A stretch of 55,491 nucleotides of DNA. Origin: Nanobdellota archaeon. GTDB lineage: Archaea > Nanobdellota > Nanobdellia > SCGC-AAA011-G17 > PNOQ01. The DNA lies in assembly GCA_018829185.1 (NCBI GenBank), contig JAHJUI010000017.1:1-55491 (forward strand), written 5' to 3'. This document shows positions 329 to 31,636 of the stretch, piece after piece. Below the pieces are notes generated by a model that was given only the letters and a program-made list of their open reading frames with translations, did not search any database and was not told the origin of the DNA. Made by a program: the position numbers and the translations under genes. The stretch's first letter is position 1. Each line of letters begins with the position of its first letter.

Positions 329-1684
329 ATGGATGGCCTTATTGAAGTTAAGTTGGAAAAAGATCTTCTTTCTAATGAACTTGAATATTTTTTTACATTC
401 TTATGTGATAGGTTTGAGTATGCTGTTGAACTTTGGATAAAAGAACTTGAGAAGAAGTTTAATAAAAAATTTAAGCCAATTTGGATTTTATCTTCAAAAC
501 AAAATGATTTATTCAAAAAAGAGAATTTTATTATCATTAATAGATTAATTAATAAATTTCCTAAAGAAAACGTAGATTCGAAACTTGTTTGTCAAGAAGA
601 ACCTGAAGACCTAAACAAATACTTCTCTGAATCAGAATTCATTAAGGGACTGATTGAAAAGCTTGTTAGAAAACAAGGAAGGGTCTTTATTCTCCCATGG
701 ACTAGTTCTTGTTTAAAAGCTCAAAATCCTCAAGCAATTATTCTTGGTCCTGGCCCAGATGTAGCCAAAAAATATGATAACAAAATAACACAAGTAGAAT
801 TATTTAATGAATTAGGTCTACTAAGAAATAAAGTTCAAATATACAATAACTTTAAAGAACTTAAAAAAAATGTGAAATTTCCCTCATTCATTTCCGCATC
901 ATATACATCAGGTGGTTTTGAAAATGGAGTTATAAATTCTAAGGATAAATTAGATGAATATTATACTCGCGTTAGGGAAGAGAATAAGGGGGGGAAATTT
1001 ATTTCCGCAAGATTGATAGAGGATGTAAAACATTCCCCGAATGTTAATGCTATTGTCTTTGAAGAGGGAAAGACAGAAATTATTTGTATTAGTGATCAAA
1101 TTCTAAGAGGATGCAAGTATTTAGGAAACATTTATCCTAGCATTATAGATAAAAAATCAAAAAAAGCAATAATTGAAACAACAAAAATAGTGGGGAATCA
1201 TTTATCAAAAAAAGGATTTAAAGGAGTTTTTGGATTAGATTTTATAATAGATAGTAGAGGCAACCTATATACAATCGATTTAAATCCAAGAAGACAAGGA
1301 GGTTATGTATGTAATATTTTAATGGCCCTTCCAAAAGTTAGTTTAATTGAATTAGAACTTAAATTAGCTCTTAATGAAAAAATAAAAAATATTCCTTCTT
1401 ATGAAGATTTTCAAGTAGATTATGTTTGGGCACACTTAAAACTTAAACCTTATTACGATTTTATGAAAATAGTTAAAATCACAAATAAGAATCGGGTAGA
1501 TACTCCCTTTTTAGAGATTGGAAAAGGATTTAAAACAATTTTTTATCCAAAAGGATATCGATTTTTTGGAGGGGGGGTTGGATATGCGATAAAAAGCGGC
1601 AATAATTACAATAAAGTAAAAGAAGATTTAATCAAGGATATAGAAAAAATTCTCTCCACCCATTTAGATTTATACACTATCTAA
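329..1684 (+). CDS. ATP-grasp ligase of unknown substrate, 451 aa
   Basis: The C-terminal two thirds resemble an ATP-grasp enzyme (ATP-dependent carboxylate-amine/thiol ligases that pass through an acyl-phosphate). Visible pieces are a conserved lead-in NKITQVELFNELG (151-163), FGLDF-x3-DSRG (301-311) and the metal-binding DLNPRRQGG (317-325), where Asp/Asn would hold Mg-ATP. The first 120 residues are an N-terminal domain I do not recognise. No transmembrane segment is seen. The gene follows the zinc-ribbon gene by 5 nt and converges on the nitroreductase gene, with the last 15 nt overlapping. Its company (two radical SAM proteins, a carbamoyltransferase-like domain, a nitroreductase) suggests a role in making or modifying a small molecule or peptide; this is inference. 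Confidence 0.8.
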   Translation: MDGLIEVKLEKDLLSNELEYFFTFLCDRFEYAVELWIKELEKKFNKKFKPIWILSSKQNDLFKKENFIIINRLINKFPKENVDSKLVCQEEPEDLNKYFSESEFIKGLIEKLVRKQGRVFILPWTSSCLKAQNPQAIILGPGPDVAKKYDNKITQVELFNELGLLRNKVQIYNNFKELKKNVKFPSFISASYTSGGFENGVINSKDKLDEYYTRVREENKGGKFISARLIEDVKHSPNVNAIVFEEGKTEIICISDQILRGCKYLGNIYPSIIDKKSKKAIIETTKIVGNHLSKKGFKGVFGLDFIIDSRGNLYTIDLNPRRQGGYVCNILMALPKVSLIELELKLALNEKIKNIPSYEDFQVDYVWAHLKLKPYYDFMKIVKITNKNRVDTPFLEIGKGFKTIFYPKGYRFFGGGVGYAIKSGNNYNKVKEDLIKDIEKILSTHLDLYTI

Positions 1685-2218
1685 ATGGGTTATTTCTTCG
1701 ATGCTTAACTTCTTTCTTTTTTTACTTGAAGAATCTTTTGGATAACCCACTGTAATTGTAGCAAGAACCTCCATAGGCAACTGTATTCCTAGCCTTTTTC
1801 GGATTATTTCATTTTTCTGATCACCAATATAACAAGTGCCGAGACCTAATTCAGTTGCACGAAGAACTAAAAATGCTGTTGAAATTGCTAGATCTCTCAT
1901 TGCAATTGAGCGACAAACTTCTTTGTCTACCCCCTTATCCCTTGATTTTTCCCAACTACTTTTAGAATAAGTTGGAGGGTAAAAACAAGCTATCACTAAT
2001 CCGGGAGCAGTGCAAACGAAACGTTGTTTGTAAGCATCTCTTAATGAATAGATTGCTGATTTGTCTGTTAATGGTATATACCTATATCCCTGCAAGTTTT
2101 TACATGATGGGGCTAATCTAGCTGCTTCAATAAGTTCCTGCATTATTCCTTTTGGAAGAGGTTTATCTGAGTAACTTCTTACACTTTTCCTAGTTCTTAT
2201 CGCATTTATAACGTCCAT
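1670..2218 (-). CDS. Nitroreductase-family flavoprotein, 182 aa
   Basis: The protein has the layout of the FMN-dependent nitroreductase family: an N-terminal AIRTRKSVRSY FMN-phosphate motif (residues 6-16), AARLAPSCKNLQGYRY (about 31-46) for the flavin ring, and the later ELGLGTCYIGD segment (about 123-133). These enzymes use NAD(P)H to reduce nitro groups, quinones or C=C/C=N bonds, or dehalogenate. At 182 residues it is on the short side but complete. It is the last gene of the minus-strand operon, 4 nt behind the carbamoyltransferase/radical SAM fusion, so it probably acts on the same pathway. The substrate cannot be read from sequence. Confidence 0.88.
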   Translation of the reverse strand: MDVINAIRTRKSVRSYSDKPLPKGIMQELIEAARLAPSCKNLQGYRYIPLTDKSAIYSLRDAYKQRFVCTAPGLVIACFYPPTYSKSSWEKSRDKGVDKEVCRSIAMRDLAISTAFLVLRATELGLGTCYIGDQKNEIIRKRLGIQLPMEVLATITVGYPKDSSSKKRKKLSIEEITHLDSV

Positions 2219-2222
2219 TTTA

Positions 2223-4262
2223 TTATAACTTAAACTCTTCTTTTAAAAGTTCATAAAATTTTTCTAATCTTTTAGATAACTCCTCCGTTTTTATATTCAT
2301 TCTTGATTCCCATTCTTTAAAAGAAGAAGAACCAAAATATTTTTTAGATAATTCTTCAATAAGTTTAAAATCATGGTTGCTTCCAAATGTTTTCAACACA
2401 GATATAAATTCATTAGTTGTTTCATCTTCGTTAGTTGCATACTTTAGGGGCTTTATTCCTGAATCAAACCCCGCAATCTTAATAAATTTTCTCTCTCGAT
2501 TAGTTAATCTTTTTAAAATTTCGACAACAGACCATAGCAGGGGGGGTTGGTACAAACCTTTTTTATATTCCCATTCTATTAAAGTATTTGGTTTTATATT
2601 CATCACCATTAAAATAATCCATTTAATTGGGTGGGTTTCGTCAACATCTTTTAATATATCTTTAATTGTTTTAACAACATCTTCAATAGCTTCTTTTTCA
2701 GTAAGCACATTTGGTTTAAACATCACGTCTAATGAGATTTCTAAATCAAACTCTTTAGCATAATCTAAAAAGTTACTGTAAGCTTCCTCGTTAAAATTTT
2801 TATTGATAATACCTTCCCTAACAATGCAGGTTGTACTTTCCAGCCCCAAACCAATTTCAATTTTTTTATCATCTAGTATATCTCGCATTTGTTTTATCTT
2901 ATCTTCTGTGATAAATTCTGGTCTGGATTCACATGCAAATCTTTTTACCCATTCTCTTTTAGCAACTTCTTCAAGCATTCTTTTTCTTAAATTGGGAGAA
3001 TGTTCAGAATCATCAAAAAAACTTCCCTGCCCCCCATAATTAAGATTTGGGAATGCTTTAATTACCGGATCCTCTAATGTTTCTACAAACTTTCTTAATA
3101 AAATTTCATCAGATAATTTTACTATTGCCCCCCCATAATTGCACATCGTACACCCACCAAACTTTGAACGTGCATAAGAACACCCGACAGTAGGAAGCCA
3201 AAAAAGGGGCTGTTCTCCCCCTTCTTCAAAAGGTATCATAAAATATCTTTTTACACCATCTAACTTAAACTCTTGATTTCTAAACTGTTCAGTTCTTTGA
3301 TTTCTTAATTGCCCCATAACTATAGAAAGAATTTTTTTCCCTTCCTTAATTAATTCTTCCTCTTCCTTTTCTCTTAACATTTTTAAAAAAATTGCCATTC
3401 TAACAAATAATCCGTTTCTACTTTGTTTAAAATATTTTGCTTGCGGCAATTTATCTACTTTTACATCAATTTCTCCCACTCTTGGTAAAGGACATAGAAT
3501 AATTGCTGTCGGTTTTAATTTTTTGATTGTATCTTCTGTTATCTGATATTTGTTTAATTCAGCAAAAGAGGTCTCCGGATTATATTCATCATGCACAAGC
3601 CCACACATATATATAATATCTTCATCACACATGGTGTTCTTTGAGGAAACTTTTATTTTTATATCTCCCTTGAAACAAAGAGAATCTAAATCTATTTGCA
3701 GCGATTTAGGAGAAATTAAAGTAATCTCGTTATTCTCAAAAAAAGACAAGGCAACCAATAAAGAATGGGCTGAGCGCGAATTCTTCAAATCTCCAATAAG
3801 CACGATCTTTAAATTATCCAATCGTTTAAACTCCTCAAAAATCGTAAATAAATCTAATAATGCTTGCGTTGGGTGTTCATCCTTCCCATTACCACAATTA
3901 ATTATTCTTGTGTTTGTATTTTTTTCAGCAATAAAGGGGGCTTCTTCTAAGTTATGCCTTAGGCAGATCAAATCGACATAGTCCCCAATTACTCTAATCG
4001 TATCCTTAAAACTTTCACTGTTCCCCATAACTTTTTCAAATTTTGTTTCATACAAATTAACAATATTGCCCCCCAACTTTTGCATTGCTAAAGAAGAGCT
4101 TATTCTTGTTCTTGTGGATGGTTGAAAAAACAAAGTCGCTAAACTTTTTCCTTTCAATTTATCTCGAAACTTTTCAGGATTATTCTTCATCTCTTTAGCT
4201 AAGTGGAGAATCTCTAAGATTTCTTCTTTGCTCAAATCTTCTATTCTAATTAAATTTTTCAT
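2223..4262 (-). CDS. Carbamoyltransferase-like domain fused to a radical SAM domain, 679 aa
   Basis: Residues 1-300 match an aspartate/ornithine carbamoyltransferase fold: PSTRTR (48-53), LRHN (101-104), HPTQALLDLFTI (130-141), GDLKNSR (157-163), PLPRVGEI (258-265). These are the carbamoyl-phosphate contacts. By comparison with E. coli PyrB from memory, the aspartate-binding Arg229 and Gln231 correspond to Gly221 and Val223 here, and Lys84 of the 80s loop to Asn81, so the acceptor is probably not aspartate. Residues 340-679 form a radical SAM domain with cysteines 361, 371 and 374 (C-x9-C-x2-C in GCSYARSKFGGCTMCNYGG), a spacing I associate with the COG1244/RaSEA group. Its start codon overlaps the stop of the upstream radical SAM gene (TAATG), so translation is likely coupled. 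Such a fusion is not one I know. Confidence 0.85.
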   Translation of the reverse strand: MKNLIRIEDLSKEEILEILHLAKEMKNNPEKFRDKLKGKSLATLFFQPSTRTRISSSLAMQKLGGNIVNLYETKFEKVMGNSESFKDTIRVIGDYVDLICLRHNLEEAPFIAEKNTNTRIINCGNGKDEHPTQALLDLFTIFEEFKRLDNLKIVLIGDLKNSRSAHSLLVALSFFENNEITLISPKSLQIDLDSLCFKGDIKIKVSSKNTMCDEDIIYMCGLVHDEYNPETSFAELNKYQITEDTIKKLKPTAIILCPLPRVGEIDVKVDKLPQAKYFKQSRNGLFVRMAIFLKMLREKEEEELIKEGKKILSIVMGQLRNQRTEQFRNQEFKLDGVKRYFMIPFEEGGEQPLFWLPTVGCSYARSKFGGCTMCNYGGAIVKLSDEILLRKFVETLEDPVIKAFPNLNYGGQGSFFDDSEHSPNLRKRMLEEVAKREWVKRFACESRPEFITEDKIKQMRDILDDKKIEIGLGLESTTCIVREGIINKNFNEEAYSNFLDYAKEFDLEISLDVMFKPNVLTEKEAIEDVVKTIKDILKDVDETHPIKWIILMVMNIKPNTLIEWEYKKGLYQPPLLWSVVEILKRLTNRERKFIKIAGFDSGIKPLKYATNEDETTNEFISVLKTFGSNHDFKLIEELSKKYFGSSSFKEWESRMNIKTEELSKRLEKFYELLKEEFKL

Positions 4263-5350
4263 TATTTTGTATATTCATAAAATTCACTTCCATCTGGAAA
4301 TGTTAAAGTATTATGGTGGCAAGGTATACATTTTGGTCCTAATTTTACCCCCCATTTTTTAACAATTTCTAAACTTTTTTCATATGCCTCAATTAACTGA
4401 TTTTTATTGGGAGGAGGTACTTGACTTAGCGGGGTTTTTGGAGATGGTTGAAATGGGCTCAGTACGGGGGATACCCCTATTTTTGATAATGCTTCTACGC
4501 CTTTTAATGTATCTTCAATTGGTTCTAATCCTATTAATAAGATGGAACGGACATTGTTCTTACCAAAAACCTCAACAGCCCTTTTTAAAAAGTTAAAATA
4601 ACCTTGTTGACTAATTTTATTCTTTCCAATAATTAGTTTACCTGCTATTTCTTGGTTAAAAAGTTCTAAATTAACAGATAATTCATTTACCCCCCATGAA
4701 TATAATTCATCAACATAATTTATATCTTTTCTTGCCACCATCATGATATCAACAGGTTCATCAAATGATTTTATTATCTTTTTGTATACTCTGTCTATAT
4801 ATTTTTCATCTTTTGGTAGTGGATTTCCTCCGCTGATTAATATATGTTTAGCAGGCAATATCGGATCTTCAAGAGCGATTTCTATAGATTCTATAAAATT
4901 ATTAACATCTCTCTTTTTATATTTGGAACTATAAGACAAATCACAAAACTGGCAAGAAAAAGAACAGCCAGCAATCGGAGAGATTCTAACTCTATCTGTA
5001 TGGGTCATTGCAAACCAGCCATATTCTTTCCCTTTTTTATTTTTCTTGTCGAAATAAGAAGGGAGGGGTATTGATTCTACTCTTATAGATTTTCCTTCAA
5101 AATTTAAGGAAAACGAGTTATCGTTAAAATCTAGTACTGCCTTTGCATTTTTACAGAACCCTTCAGCAAAATGGCTGTTTATGAAAATATTAGTATTATG
5201 GAATTGAAGAGGAATCCCGCTTGTTGTAGCATATTCAAAAAGAGATAAAGGAATTTTTCCTCCTCTTGTTAACTCATTTTTGGCTTTTTCAGTAATCTTC
5301 ATACCATTAGCCATAAGTTCTATTTTTAATAATTCTGGAGGTTTTAGCAT
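4262..5350 (-). CDS. Radical SAM protein, 362 aa, first gene of the operon
   Basis: Canonical radical SAM cysteines are at 129, 133 and 136 (GCSFSCQFCDLS), which bind a [4Fe-4S] cluster that cleaves S-adenosylmethionine. The SAM-contact ISGGNP follows near residue 173. An extra KCIPCHH pair near the C-terminus (about 340-346) might hold an auxiliary cluster or metal. The N-terminal 110 residues are a beta-rich domain I do not recognise. On the minus strand a TATA-like ATAAATATTTA lies about 30-40 nt before the ATG with no Shine-Dalgarno, so the operon probably starts here. The next gene overlaps by one base. Function unknown; the family covers methyl- and thiotransfer, ring formation and rearrangement. 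Confidence 0.85.
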   Translation of the reverse strand: MLKPPELLKIELMANGMKITEKAKNELTRGGKIPLSLFEYATTSGIPLQFHNTNIFINSHFAEGFCKNAKAVLDFNDNSFSLNFEGKSIRVESIPLPSYFDKKNKKGKEYGWFAMTHTDRVRISPIAGCSFSCQFCDLSYSSKYKKRDVNNFIESIEIALEDPILPAKHILISGGNPLPKDEKYIDRVYKKIIKSFDEPVDIMMVARKDINYVDELYSWGVNELSVNLELFNQEIAGKLIIGKNKISQQGYFNFLKRAVEVFGKNNVRSILLIGLEPIEDTLKGVEALSKIGVSPVLSPFQPSPKTPLSQVPPPNKNQLIEAYEKSLEIVKKWGVKLGPKCIPCHHNTLTFPDGSEFYEYTK

Positions 5351-5459: not shown

Positions 5460-5500
5460 AGCCTGGAAAAGAGGTAAATATTATCTATATCCCAATAATC

Positions 5501-5508
5501 TTTTTATA
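5501..5508 (+). promoter_or_regulatory. TATA box of the first sigma-like gene
   Basis: TTTTTATA ends 22 nt before the ATG at 5531, and no Shine-Dalgarno sequence is present. The gene for this bacterial-type factor therefore seems to be read from an ordinary archaeal, leaderless promoter. Confidence 0.6.
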
Positions 5509-5530
5509 CTTTAATTAATCTTTATTTGTA

Positions 5531-6424
5531 ATGTATTCAAGCCCACTACAAGATCCTGCTAGAATATCTAATTCTGAGTTAAGAGAATACGTTAGAGAAA
5601 TCTTAAAATATCCCCGGTCCACTAGGGAGGAGGAAATAGAGCTTGGAAGGGGGAGGCGGGATGGGGATGCTGAAGCAAGGGATGCCTTGGTTATGTCTAA
5701 TCTTTGGTTTCCTGTTTATCACGCCTGGCCTTATGCCTATTCTTGGGGGCGGGATCAAGAGAGTAGAGAAGAAAGTTGTTTTAGATTAAGTGAGGAAGGG
5801 AATCTTGGTTTAGTCATAGCTGCAAACAAATTTGATGAGAGGCATGGTGTAAGGTTTACATCTTTTGCTAAATGGGAAATTGATAAAGCTATCTTTGATT
5901 TCTTTAAACAATGTGGCCAGAGGGTAATTAATGTCAGCCATTATAGGGCAAATCTTGTAAAAAAAGTTAAGGGCACTATTGAGTATTTACTAACTAAGGA
6001 AGGGCGTATTCCTTCTGCGGAAGAAATTTCAAATATGTTGGGGGATATTTCTGTTAATGTAGTTAAAAGCACCCTTAAAGTTTATAATTCAGTGGAATTA
6101 TCTTTTGATAGAGAAGATTCTGAGGAAGAAACCCTACATGATGAATTTTATTTTCATGATGGAAGAGATATATGGACTCGCTTGACAAGAGAATCCTTGG
6201 GTGAGGCTTTAGATCATGCAATGGGTGGTTTGAATCCTCAAGAAAGGAGTTTTTTAACCCTAAGATACCTCGAAGGGAAAGATAATAAAGAAATTGCTAA
6301 ACTCTGGAATGTCACCCCCAGCAGAGTAAGAGAGGTTAAACCCCTGGCTAAAGAAAAGTTTAGAAAACGTCTCGCTTATGATCCTCTTTTTAGAGAACTT
6401 GGGATGGATTACCTTATTGATTAG
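5531..6424 (+). CDS. Sigma-70-family-like protein 1, 297 aa
   Basis: The whole chain follows the order of a bacterial group 1-3 sigma factor. Region 1.2/2.1 is about residues 14-75 (LREYVREILKYPRSTREEEIELG, with the usual DAEARDALVMSNL). Region 2.2 is 88-101 (EEGNLGLVIAANKFD), the part that in bacteria grips the RNA polymerase clamp helices. Regions 2.3/2.4 are about 105-128 (VRFTSFAKWEIDKAI), region 3.0 about 130-146, region 3.1 about 158-185 (RIPSAEEISNML), and region 4 about 234-281 with the helix-turn-helix NKEIAKLWNVTPSRVREV. The -10-reading residues of region 2.4 (Gln437, Thr440 in E. coli, from memory) are Lys and Phe here, so its DNA target should differ. A paralogue follows 42 nt downstream. 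Archaeal RNA polymerase uses TBP and TFB, so a sigma-like protein here is unexpected. Function is inferred. Confidence 0.88.
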   Translation: MYSSPLQDPARISNSELREYVREILKYPRSTREEEIELGRGRRDGDAEARDALVMSNLWFPVYHAWPYAYSWGRDQESREESCFRLSEEGNLGLVIAANKFDERHGVRFTSFAKWEIDKAIFDFFKQCGQRVINVSHYRANLVKKVKGTIEYLLTKEGRIPSAEEISNMLGDISVNVVKSTLKVYNSVELSFDREDSEEETLHDEFYFHDGRDIWTRLTRESLGEALDHAMGGLNPQERSFLTLRYLEGKDNKEIAKLWNVTPSRVREVKPLAKEKFRKRLAYDPLFRELGMDYLID

Positions 6425-6434
6425 TAATTCAAAA

Positions 6435-6445
6435 TATTTTTAAAT
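6435..6445 (+). promoter_or_regulatory. TATA box of the second sigma-like gene
   Basis: TATTTTTAAAT lies 21 nt before the ATG at 6467, inside the 42-nt gap between the two sigma-like genes. The second gene can therefore be transcribed on its own as a leaderless mRNA. Confidence 0.5.
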
Positions 6446-6466
6446 GATTGTGAAATTCTTTTAAGG

Positions 6467-7375
6467 ATGGTTTCTGATTATGAAAAGGAAGGCCCCTTGG
6501 ATGCATATTTTAGAGAAATAAGTGGGTATCCCCCATTAAGTTTAGAGGAAGAGCTAGAACTGGGTAAGAATATTCAAATGGGAAATATCGGAGCAAGAGA
6601 CACTATTGTTAATCATAACTTGCAAGCAGTTGTTCATTTTGGTAAACGGTATTTTGATTTGGCAGACCCCCCTGGAATAATCAGTGTTGGGAATTCTAGT
6701 TTAACAGATTTTGCAGATGAGTTTGATCCATCTCATAAAAGAAGGTTAATTGATTATGCTAAAAAAGGGATAAGGGCCTCTATGTGGGATTATATTGCTG
6801 AAATGGGGCACTTCGCGAGTATTCCGAGGGCAGAAATTGAACTGGTAAGGTCATTACCTGTAGCGGTTAGTTTCTTGACTAACGTTCTTGGACATTATCC
6901 TTCTGTTGAACAAATCAAAGAAAGACTAATGGACCACCACCATCTTTCATGTTCTGCTAAAAGAATAAGAAACGTCATGTCGATTGATGGAATGTTTTCA
7001 GTGTCTTTGGATGATTGCGTGCCAAGGGATAATGAAGGAAGATTTGATTGTAGTGGGGCTGTTTTAACTGATGCTTTAGCTAATCCGGATTGGGAGAATA
7101 TACTTAGTTCATTGGATGGGGAGGAATCAAAAAGACGAGATTCATTAGAAAAAGTTATGTCAAATATTCTAAGGCAATTAAGTGAAAAGGAAAGAAACGT
7201 TTTGGTTATGCGTGGAGTTTACGGAATGCAATATAAAGAAGTGGCAAAGGCCATAGGATCTTGTACTTCAACTGCTTTTAATGTTTATAGAAAAGCAACA
7301 CAAAGAGCGAGGTTAATCGCAGAAGAAAGTTCCGAATTAAGAGAACTCGGCATGAATTATCTTTTTGAGCAATAA
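6467..7375 (+). CDS. Sigma-70-family-like protein 2, divergent paralogue, 302 aa
   Basis: Region 1.2/2.1 is very clear: GPLDAYFREISGYPPLSLEE (residues 9-28), then GARDTIVNHNLQAVVHFGKRY (42-62). Region 2.2 is worn: where sigma factors have an EGNxGL helix this one has SVGNSSLTDFADEFDP (73-88). Region 2.3/2.4 follows as RLIDYAKKGIRASMWDYIAE (93-112), region 3 near 144-155 (YPSVEQIKERLM), and region 4 at about 236-283 (LSEKERNVLVMRGVYGMQ, then a helix-turn-helix KEVAKAIGSCTSTAFNVYRKA). It ends with RELGMNYLFEQ, close to RELGMDYLID in protein 1, which marks them as duplicates. The decayed core-binding helix raises the option that it is a regulator or partner of protein 1 rather than an active sigma factor. 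Confidence 0.82.
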   Translation: MVSDYEKEGPLDAYFREISGYPPLSLEEELELGKNIQMGNIGARDTIVNHNLQAVVHFGKRYFDLADPPGIISVGNSSLTDFADEFDPSHKRRLIDYAKKGIRASMWDYIAEMGHFASIPRAEIELVRSLPVAVSFLTNVLGHYPSVEQIKERLMDHHHLSCSAKRIRNVMSIDGMFSVSLDDCVPRDNEGRFDCSGAVLTDALANPDWENILSSLDGEESKRRDSLEKVMSNILRQLSEKERNVLVMRGVYGMQYKEVAKAIGSCTSTAFNVYRKATQRARLIAEESSELRELGMNYLFEQ

Positions 7376-7414: not shown

Positions 7415-8479
7415 ATGGGAATCTTTGATGATGTTCTAAAAGATAATGAAAGTTTGTTTATAGATGAAATTGCATTAGATTTTGATTATGTTCCAAAAGA
7501 AATCCCGTTTAGAGAAGAACAACACCAATATATCGCAGATTGTATTAAACCGTTATTTAGTCAAAGGTCTGGAAGAAATTTATTTGTTTCTGGAAAGCCG
7601 GGTATTGGGAAAACAGTTGCCCTAAAACACATTTTTAGAGAATTAAAAGTAAAAACAGATGGAATTATTCCAATCTACATTAATTGTTGGAAGAAGGACA
7701 CTAGTTTTAAAATTGTGAACGAAATTTGTGAACAAATTGGATATAAGTGGGTACAAAGTAAAAGAACAGATGAGTTAATGCGATCTATCACAAATATTTT
7801 GAATAAGAAACAAGTTGTTTTCTGTTTAGATGAAGTTGATAAAGTTAAAGAAGTTGATGTGATTTATTCGTTGGCAGAAGATATTCTAAAGAAAACCATA
7901 ATTATGATAACTAATGAGAAAGATTGGTATGCTAAATTAGATTCTAGAATTAGATCTAGGTTAAATGTTGAATATTTAGAATTTAAACCTTATAATTATG
8001 AAGAGACTCGCGGGATTTTAAAGAAAAGAGTTGGTGAAGCTTTTGCTCCAAATGTTTTTGAAGGTGATGCTTTTGAGGTTGTTGTTAAGAAATCATATGA
8101 AAATAAAGATTTGCGAACTGGAATATTTTTAATGAAGGAGGCTGGTAATTTAGCTGAAATGCGAGCTTCTAGAAAGATTACATTAGATCATGCAAAAATG
8201 GCTGTTTTGAAATTAGAGAGTTTTAAGATTAAAAGTTCTGCGGATTTTGGGGAAGAAGAAAGAGATATTTTAGATCTTATTAAAGAAAATTCTGGGAAAA
8301 CTGCCAAGGATTTATTTGAACTTTATTTGAAAGATGGGGGAAATAAGAGTTATAGGACATTTTATCGTAGGATAGAAGATTTAAAACGGGGTAAGATGAT
8401 TGAAACTGAAGAAGTTAATGAGGGTTTTGCTGGGAGGGCGACTGTTGTGCATTATACTAAGAAATTAAGTGAATTTTAA
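7415..8479 (+). CDS. Orc1/Cdc6-type replication initiator ATPase, 354 aa
   Basis: The N-terminal FDYVPKEIPFREEQ (residues 23-36) is the hallmark lead-in of archaeal Orc1/Cdc6 proteins. An AAA+ domain follows with Walker A GKPGIGKT (60-67), Walker B VFCLDE (135-140) and a sensor-1 ITNEKD (about 165-170). A C-terminal winged helix occupies about 276-354. Family members bind origin repeats and load the MCM helicase; they also serve as regulators. The length is slightly short but nothing is missing. It overlaps the convergent gene at 8476 by 4 nt. I saw no classical origin recognition boxes next to it, and the gaps around it are short. Confidence 0.9.
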   Translation: MGIFDDVLKDNESLFIDEIALDFDYVPKEIPFREEQHQYIADCIKPLFSQRSGRNLFVSGKPGIGKTVALKHIFRELKVKTDGIIPIYINCWKKDTSFKIVNEICEQIGYKWVQSKRTDELMRSITNILNKKQVVFCLDEVDKVKEVDVIYSLAEDILKKTIIMITNEKDWYAKLDSRIRSRLNVEYLEFKPYNYEETRGILKKRVGEAFAPNVFEGDAFEVVVKKSYENKDLRTGIFLMKEAGNLAEMRASRKITLDHAKMAVLKLESFKIKSSADFGEEERDILDLIKENSGKTAKDLFELYLKDGGNKSYRTFYRRIEDLKRGKMIETEEVNEGFAGRATVVHYTKKLSEF

Positions 8480-30794: not shown

Positions 30795-30812
30795 TTTTGT
30801 CTCTTTTTATAT

Positions 30813-30900
30813 GGCGTTGTTGTTTAGTCTGGTAAAACCCGAGTCTCATGAAATTTTTTGAGAAAGCTCGTGATCGGGGGTTCAAATCCCCTCAACGCCA
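30813..30900 (+). tRNA. tRNA-Met, elongator type (anticodon CAT), with a 14-nt intron
   Basis: The acceptor GGCGTTG/CAACGCC, D stem GTTT/AAAC, anticodon stem CGAGT/GCTCG and T arm GGGGG/CCCCT all pair. The region between the anticodon stem halves is 21 nt instead of 7, so an intron of 14 nt is expected at the usual 37/38 site; CTCA and TGAG can form the bulge-helix-bulge. The anticodon is CAT. It lacks the G-C triple of initiator tRNAs in the anticodon stem, so it is elongator Met (or an Ile decoder read as CAU). The endonuclease gene overlaps its antisense strand. Confidence 0.87.
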
Positions 30901-31636
30901 TTCTCAAAAAACCTTCAATTCTAACAAATTTTTGTTGGTTTGCAGGGATTCCTTTAATCGTTTTGTTGTACAGTAAATCATATTTTATAAAATTTTTAAA
31001 TTTGTTTTCTTGTTTTGGGTTAACAAAACCAACTTTGTTCCTAAAAAGAATTAAGTTTTTCTTACCATTAATTTGTATCCTGTACCTCTGGAATTCGTTT
31101 TTCCATTTTTTTGGTTTATTTGATTTAGACATATAAAAATGAGTTTTAATACCTAGGTTATTTAAATAAATGTAGAACTCTTTTAATAAATCTTTAGAAA
31201 TAACTTGAATTTCTAGTCTTGGATAATATTTATTTGGATTTTTAATTAAAAAGAAACTACCATCTGTCGCAAAAAATCCTTGCAAAAGGTATTTTATCAG
31301 CTTTCTTTTGTAAAATATGTTTGGTATTGTTATTTTTGTTCCCTTTTTACCTACCGGGAATCCTGTTTTATCTAATTTACTAAATAACCCTTTATCTGAG
31401 AAATTAAGCTGGATTACATTTTTTCCGGGGTTAGCCTTTCTAGGTTTTATGTCTCTACCGGTAAATCTCTTTAATAATGGCAAAACAACAGAATTAATAA
31501 ATGGCCAATCATCATTAGCATTGCAGGTTATACAAACATTATAGTAAAATCCATTTTCTCTATCTTTTCTTTTATACTTCCCTATGCATCCGTCACCTAA
31601 CATAATTCCATATAAAAGTGCAAAATCTTTATCCAT
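30824..31636 (-). CDS. LAGLIDADG-family homing endonuclease, 270 aa, 3' end inside the tRNA-Met gene
   Basis: Two LAGLIDADG helices are present: LYGIMLGDGCIG (about residues 8-19) and LLQGFFATDGSFFL (about 116-129), each with the catalytic Asp. The middle carries basic beta-strand DNA-binding segments. Its last 25 residues (MALRGFEPPITSFLKKFHET and after) are encoded by the antisense strand of the tRNA-Met gene, and its TAA lies inside the tRNA. A minus-strand TATA box (31657-31666) predicts a leaderless mRNA. Such enzymes cut long sites and copy themselves into them. The tRNA intron (14 nt) does not encode it, so it is free-standing. Confidence 0.9.
   Translation of the reverse strand: MDKDFALLYGIMLGDGCIGKYKRKDRENGFYYNVCITCNANDDWPFINSVVLPLLKRFTGRDIKPRKANPGKNVIQLNFSDKGLFSKLDKTGFPVGKKGTKITIPNIFYKRKLIKYLLQGFFATDGSFFLIKNPNKYYPRLEIQVISKDLLKEFYIYLNNLGIKTHFYMSKSNKPKKWKNEFQRYRIQINGKKNLILFRNKVGFVNPKQENKFKNFIKYDLLYNKTIKGIPANQQKFVRIEGFLRMALRGFEPPITSFLKKFHETRVLPD

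Follow-up and report, generated by a model that had tools for sequence, protein, structure and literature searches.

Bacterial transcription initiation is defined by sigma factors, and archaeal initiation by TBP and TFB. The roles of the two systems are analogous, with very limited sequence similarity between their components (PMC7289017). Archaeal sigma factors as such are not new. The first of them are credited to Rinke et al. (2013) by the review PMC6126073, and for Woesearchaeota, Castelle et al. (2021) reported sigma-70 proteins (fam00359) to be prevalent, ruled out mis-binning and noted no anti-sigma factor (PMC8204110). In the open-access literature, we found no paper on the function of archaeal sigma-70 proteins. 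New in the present analysis are a degenerate tandem pair of such proteins, the recurrence of tandem pairs in related archaea, quantitative figures for prevalence and a comparison of the RNA polymerase clamp.

The pair is located in the window, by which we mean the whole stretch of 55,491 nucleotides that was analysed, from a Nanobdellota archaeon (GCA_018829185.1, contig JAHJUI010000017.1). It belongs with the sigma-70 proteins of DPANN archaea, being composed of sigma homologues that have an archaeal context and lie in an archaeal genome with TBP and TFB. Like other DPANN sigma-70 proteins, the two are full-length, are encoded in a small genome and have no recognised anti-sigma factor; unlike these proteins in general, they are arranged in tandem and have lost most promoter-reading residues. 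With bacterial group 2/3 sigma-70 factors (RpoS, RpoD/SigA of Bacteroidota and others) they share the domain order and the predicted domain folds, but they lack W434, the TRERxRQ helix and, in the second protein, most of the region 2.2 face, and their host transcribes with an archaeal RNA polymerase from TATA-box promoters. Neither protein gave a TFIIB match in Pfam, and the genome has its own TFB. The first protein also matched the sigma part of MzaA from the MZA anti-phage system (PADLOC, 5.6e-10; NCBIfam, 3.2e-14), but its 297 aa on a model of 683 positions gave 52.7 bits, where the cut-off is 800. With this partial match and no partner in the eight genes scanned, the MZA defence system was rejected.

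Homology, promoters and contact residues of the pair

The SigA-like protein (297 aa; positions 5531-6424, forward strand) and the SigB-like protein (302 aa; 6467-7375, forward strand), hereafter SigA and SigB, are encoded on the same strand with a spacing of 42 bp. SigA has regions 1.2, 2, 3 and 4 of sigma-70 in this order, region 2 containing an insertion, and SigB is a more degenerate sigma-70 homologue. All four regions had been read in both proteins by the earlier note. Single-domain Pfam matches agreed with this for regions 3 (4e-8) and 4 (5e-9) of SigA and for regions 1.2 (2.5e-8) and 4 (4.9e-6) of SigB; regions 2 (7e-4) and 1.2 (0.015) of SigA remained below the cut-off, the former with 19.8 bits where the gathering score of Sigma70_r2 is 24, and SigB gave no single-domain match to region 2 or region 3. 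Region 2 of the pair could be aligned only via full-length profiles, and it is these that settle the homology. The best NCBIfam profile for both proteins was that of RpoS (TIGR02394), which covered residues 15-285 of SigA (E = 1.9e-22) and 10-260 of SigB (E = 4.2e-16), and both proteins exceeded the cut-off of 42.9 bits of the sigma-70 superfamily profile TIGR02937, with 62.5 and 49.3 bits, correspondingly. Because the full-length profiles span nearly the whole proteins, SigA and SigB are almost certainly sigma-70 homologues. Furthermore, a PDB sequence search returned exclusively bacterial sigma factors (1.3e-20 for SigA and 6e-11 for SigB), and the structures predicted by AlphaFold (pLDDT 82.9 and 84.0, pTM about 0.5) matched sigma chains from bacterial polymerase complexes, the probability being 1.00. 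It should be added that the family alignments behind these models were small (20 and 25 rows), and that the models are good for the domains and poor for inter-domain placement. Profiles, PDB search and predicted folds therefore agree on the two adjacent sigma-70-like reading frames that had been noticed earlier.

The two proteins are 26% identical and can be aligned along their length, and overall similarity by itself does not make them mutual nearest relatives. They have in common a C-terminal tail, RELGMDYLID in SigA (6392-6421, forward strand) and RELGMNYLFE in SigB (7340-7369, forward strand), and RELGM(D/N)YL was absent from every other sigma examined. It is because of this shared tail that we regard the pair as probably the result of an old tandem duplication.

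Archaeal TATA boxes had been proposed upstream of both genes, and these could be quantified with a PWM of the host genome, for which we used 430 upstream regions out of about 727 kb; in this genome the promoters are leaderless and the TATA box starts about 31 bases 5' of the start codon. The box of sigA (CTTTTTATAC; 5500-5509, forward strand) begins at -31 from its start codon, ranks at the 87th percentile of real genes and is equalled by 0.2% of shuffles; that of sigB (ATTTTTAAAT; 6436-6445, forward strand) also begins at -31, ranks at the 76th percentile and is equalled by 1.6% of shuffles. From these boxes, expression of both genes by the host machinery is predicted, as had been suggested. 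The genome of the window (827 kb, 96% complete, 27 contigs) encodes a single archaeal Rpo1N, the largest subunit of RNA polymerase, together with one TFB and one TBP, and the Spt5 gene is located within the window. The host is thus archaeal, as had been claimed, and the sigma pair very probably sits in an archaeal context.

The clamp-binding region 2.2, which reads LDLIQEGNIGLM in E. coli, is half kept in SigA (FRLSEEGNLGLV), where EEGNLGL is retained as part of this face, and mostly lost in SigB (PGIISVGNSSLT). The melting and -10 residues of region 2.3/2.4 (...YWW and RQ in E. coli) are not kept, with ...FWE and DK in SigA and ...YKG and RA in SigB; the WW pair is thus replaced by WE and KG, correspondingly, and W434 is gone. 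Also lost is the -35 recognition helix TRERxRQ of region 4.2, at which SigA reads VTPSRVRE and SigB SCTSTAFN. Out of 20 family-consensus residues of region 4.2, SigA has 8 and SigB 4, as compared with 14 in the sigma of the related genome G044, 18 in that of G136 and 18 in E. coli RpoD, and in the part of region 1.2 considered, 6 of 7 family-consensus residues are kept in SigA and in SigB. With region 1.2 kept and region 4.2 eroded, the domain cores have therefore been retained and the DNA-reading surfaces lost. Among 81 archaeal sigmas, SigB ranks second and SigA seventh in degeneracy, and many of the 79 others keep LDLIQEGNIGLM, FRYFTYWW and LTRERIRQ of E. coli nearly letter for letter. Moreover, archaeal sigmas of 537-766 aa from the same class as the window genome (G136, G199, G356 and G107, at loci L206, L192, L207 and L200) have clamp-binding, melting and -35-reading residues almost identical to those of E. 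coli sigma-70.

Sigma-70 proteins in related archaea

A profile built from 13 archaeal sigmas, some of its matches being partial, detected a sigma in 46 of 103 genomes of the order (E <= 0.001), or nearly half of those sampled, and in 114 of 371 genomes of a phylum-wide sample (E <= 1e-10); for high-quality genomes the counts were 21 of 47 and 80 of 243. One of the 46 sigma-bearing genomes of the order is a single-contig assembly. Many full-length archaeal sigmas are preceded by archaeal TATA-like boxes, and in ten long ones Pfam recognised no further domain above its cut-off. The genus of the window pair is represented by one genome in the sample, and a search for close orthologues of the pair in contigs of other genomes returned weak bacterial region-4 matches only. 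In viral contigs, a single-sequence search found, within its sensitivity, no relative of either protein, and a virus origin was rejected. In family f9 (L031 and L038), the sigma gene was found near aEF1A-like and uS10-like genes, in L031 directly after the uS10-like one.

A tree was computed from 82 archaeal and 14 bacterial or phage sequences, and is characterised by thin bacterial sampling and many long branches. In it, archaeal sigmas interleaved with bacterial ones and did not form one clade. The archaeal rows required nine label changes, at least four of which are forced by supported branches, and several acquisitions are therefore probable. In this phylogeny, of the kind that the earlier note had proposed as a check, the window pair itself is long-branched and unplaced. 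Canonical sigmas of families f1, f9 and f16 were positioned near a Bacteroidota RpoD/SigA, and the sigma of G044 is 46% identical to RpoD/SigA of Hymenobacter.

Tandem same-strand sigma pairs were present in 10 genomes with gaps of 5-149 bp, and several of them are sister genes on the tree. Asymmetry within such pairs, with one copy keeping region 4.2 and the other not, was not above that of random pairs (p = 0.82); for region 2 we obtained p = 0.016, but this result is driven by a truncated copy and is not claimed.

Genomic surroundings of the pair

The right border of the insertion that carries the pair is formed by a core gene, outside the sigma module, for an Orc1/Cdc6-family protein (7415-8479, forward strand). 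Its orthologue was found in all 21 genomes searched, with 43-60% identity, and as a core gene found everywhere without sigma, it was ruled out as a functional partner. On the 3' side of orc1, the block metallophosphoesterase-TYW1-TatD-S2P-eIF5A recurs in the family with some losses and without sigma genes upstream. On the 5' side, relatives typically have a gene for a 117-aa protein, either directly adjacent or with one to three genes inserted. The 117-aa gene of the window genome is located on another contig (C21), where it faces a contig end with a transposase, and the first 7.4 kb of the contig of the window (C16) have no counterpart at the same place in relatives; C16 starts with genes that the family largely lacks, after which come the sigma pair and orc1. 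The left flank (329-5350) is lineage-specific and comprises an ATP-grasp protein, a nitroreductase, a PyrB-radical SAM fusion and a radical SAM protein. The simplest reading is that of a lineage-specific island inserted at an often-hit junction, contigs C21 and C16 presumably being neighbours.

The facing ends of the two contigs (12809-17186 of C21 in the window genome, G000, locus L262; 1-300 of the window) both carry ACTAAAAGTAATATAG and a GTGACA(A/T)ATGTCA palindrome. On C21 these elements are close to the gene of a DDE transposase, and an insertion sequence may have interrupted the assembly at this point. Within the left flank, a 679-aa reading frame (2223-4262, reverse strand) has an aspartate/ornithine carbamoyltransferase in residues 1-293, and its second part resembles, by eye, an archaeal radical SAM protein; the carbamoyltransferase (PyrB) part is missing from the other eight genomes of the family. 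The adjacent radical SAM gene (4262-5350, reverse strand), whose product has no relative in 30 related genomes, is divergent from sigA and has its own TATA-like element with the spacing at -31. Further downstream in the window, a tRNA-Met gene (30812-30901, forward strand) is overlapped in antisense by a 270-aa reading frame (30824-31636, reverse strand) that looks by eye like a LAGLIDADG homing endonuclease.

The GC content of the sigma genes (38.7 and 37.6%) is above that of all 35 window genes used for comparison (31.2 +/- 2.7%), which points to transfer or to an unusual constraint. Together with the interleaving of archaeal and bacterial sigmas in the tree, this composition upholds the horizontal gain and bacterial ancestry that had been proposed.

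Possible roles of the pair and of its relatives

The reading we favour, and hold tentatively, is that the pair may represent domesticated transcription regulators on a sigma fold, and not working promoter-specificity subunits. Two paralogous sigma-70 proteins of bacterial origin would be transcribed by the host TBP and TFB from their own TATA boxes; they would have retained the sigma helical domains (1.2-2, 3 and 4), with the residues for reading and melting of bacterial promoters drifted, and would work at DNA, either on their own or together with the archaeal polymerase, as accessory regulators of a few genes. SigA, with part of the 2.2 face (EEGNLGL) and an intact fold of the region 4 helix-turn-helix, could be the more active member, and SigB, derived from the same tandem duplication, its partner or antagonist. 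Judged by sequence, a repurposed nucleic-acid binder, which the earlier note had given as an alternative, would fit better than its proposal of an action on the clamp at special promoters.

The degenerate residues of the pair are equally expected of decaying genes. That SigA and SigB are recently acquired or decaying bacterial genes, functionless in the host and carried on a mobile or plastic island, would agree with the lineage-specific flank and the transposase at the facing contig end, with the atypical GC, with the patchy distribution in the order (46 of 103 genomes) and with the many degenerate sigma copies elsewhere. We nevertheless consider it unlikely, as the two reading frames, each of about 300 codons, are intact and have good TATA boxes, and the 26% identity between copies free of stop codons would, if they are duplicates, imply long maintenance. 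Sigma prevalence is, moreover, high in genomes of 0.5-1.5 Mb, where useless genes tend to go.

It is quite doubtful that the pair, or SigA alone, is a true alternative initiation factor, docking on the archaeal clamp helices and replacing or competing with TFB at special promoters. In favour of such a role, relatives keep the residues of regions 2.2, 2.3 and 4.2, which is hard to explain unless polymerase and promoter surfaces are used, and SigA retains EEGNLGL; the pair has, however, lost the WW pair and the TRERxRQ helix, and the polymerase itself speaks against it. At the positions of R275, E295 and A302 of E. coli beta-prime, which are known as sigma-binding residues, Rpo1N has I, L and H, and its clamp helices are archaeal and not of bacterial type. 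These helices are nearly invariant across about 50 genomes, and as they are alike in genomes with strong, weak or no sigma, co-evolution of the clamp with sigma was rejected. Nor did a sigma-type promoter class emerge: sigma-70-like consensus sites were not in excess (76 versus 81 +/- 10 in shuffles), there was no positional peak of TTGAC or TATAAT upstream of the 430 genes, and among 145 low-TATA genes no bipartite motif was enriched, only a Shine-Dalgarno-like AGGAGG. With the clamp unchanged and no bacterial-type promoters seen, the bacterial-style action of the pair on the clamp at special promoters, as envisaged earlier, is not supported.

In the wider class, some sigmas keep every bacterial contact residue checked, and within the order the clamp is unchanged. 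Two explanations present themselves: the clamp of the archaeal enzyme can accept sigma, or the sigma fold now serves a different task. The former would be better tested with the canonical relatives (G136, G199, G356 and G044), and for the latter the window pair, with its bacterial contacts shed, offers a natural test. That the canonical relatives have so strongly retained their contact residues is a more provocative fact than the pair. It would be a bold and rather improbable extension to suppose that the RNA polymerase of this order of small archaea can be redirected by horizontally acquired sigmas, with tandem pairs as a two-part switch and a hybrid TFB/sigma system in one cell; if the two-part switch were true, one member would bind polymerase and the other would bind DNA or oppose the first.

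Contamination or a chimeric contig, with sigma genes from another organism, is highly improbable. That relatives have nothing corresponding to the first 7.4 kb of the contig at this position, that PyrB and the radical SAM protein are absent from the family and that the GC of the sigma genes is atypical could all be read in this way. The left flank is, however, normal in composition for the genome (GC 30.8 versus 30.5%, with an unremarkable tetranucleotide distance); the leaderless -31 TATA spacing of the host is seen at sigA, at sigB and at the radical SAM gene next to them; and sigma genes occur in 46 of 103 related genomes, including the single-contig one. Moreover, the gene that ancestrally preceded orc1 is on C21 and points towards the contig end with the transposase, so that two halves of the ancestral block frame the island. 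Mis-assembly is unlikely because the stretch with the pair sits at the junction of the 117-aa gene and orc1, where relatives too carry insertions, and the bacterial/archaeal chimera against which the earlier note had cautioned is thus not borne out. The least probable explanation is that the pair is directed at a bacterial RNA polymerase, belonging to the host or prey of a presumably symbiotic archaeon: DPANN are generally predicted to be symbionts (PMC8204110) and the canonical relatives look suited to bacterial polymerase, but the pair has no obvious N-terminal export signal (by eye) and lacks the residues for bacterial promoters and clamp, and no bacterial partner is known.

No conserved functional neighbour of the sigma genes was found, and a membrane sensor-like protein (weak MASE3 match) was rejected as one, since 27 of 61 genomes have it and, in the window genome, it does not lie near sigma. 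In three genomes from two families (G003, G006 and G018), this protein and an HTH_45 winged helix are located near sigma (L030 4124-5060, L032 10065-11016 and L040 1542-2491), where a link with a membrane signal is possible.
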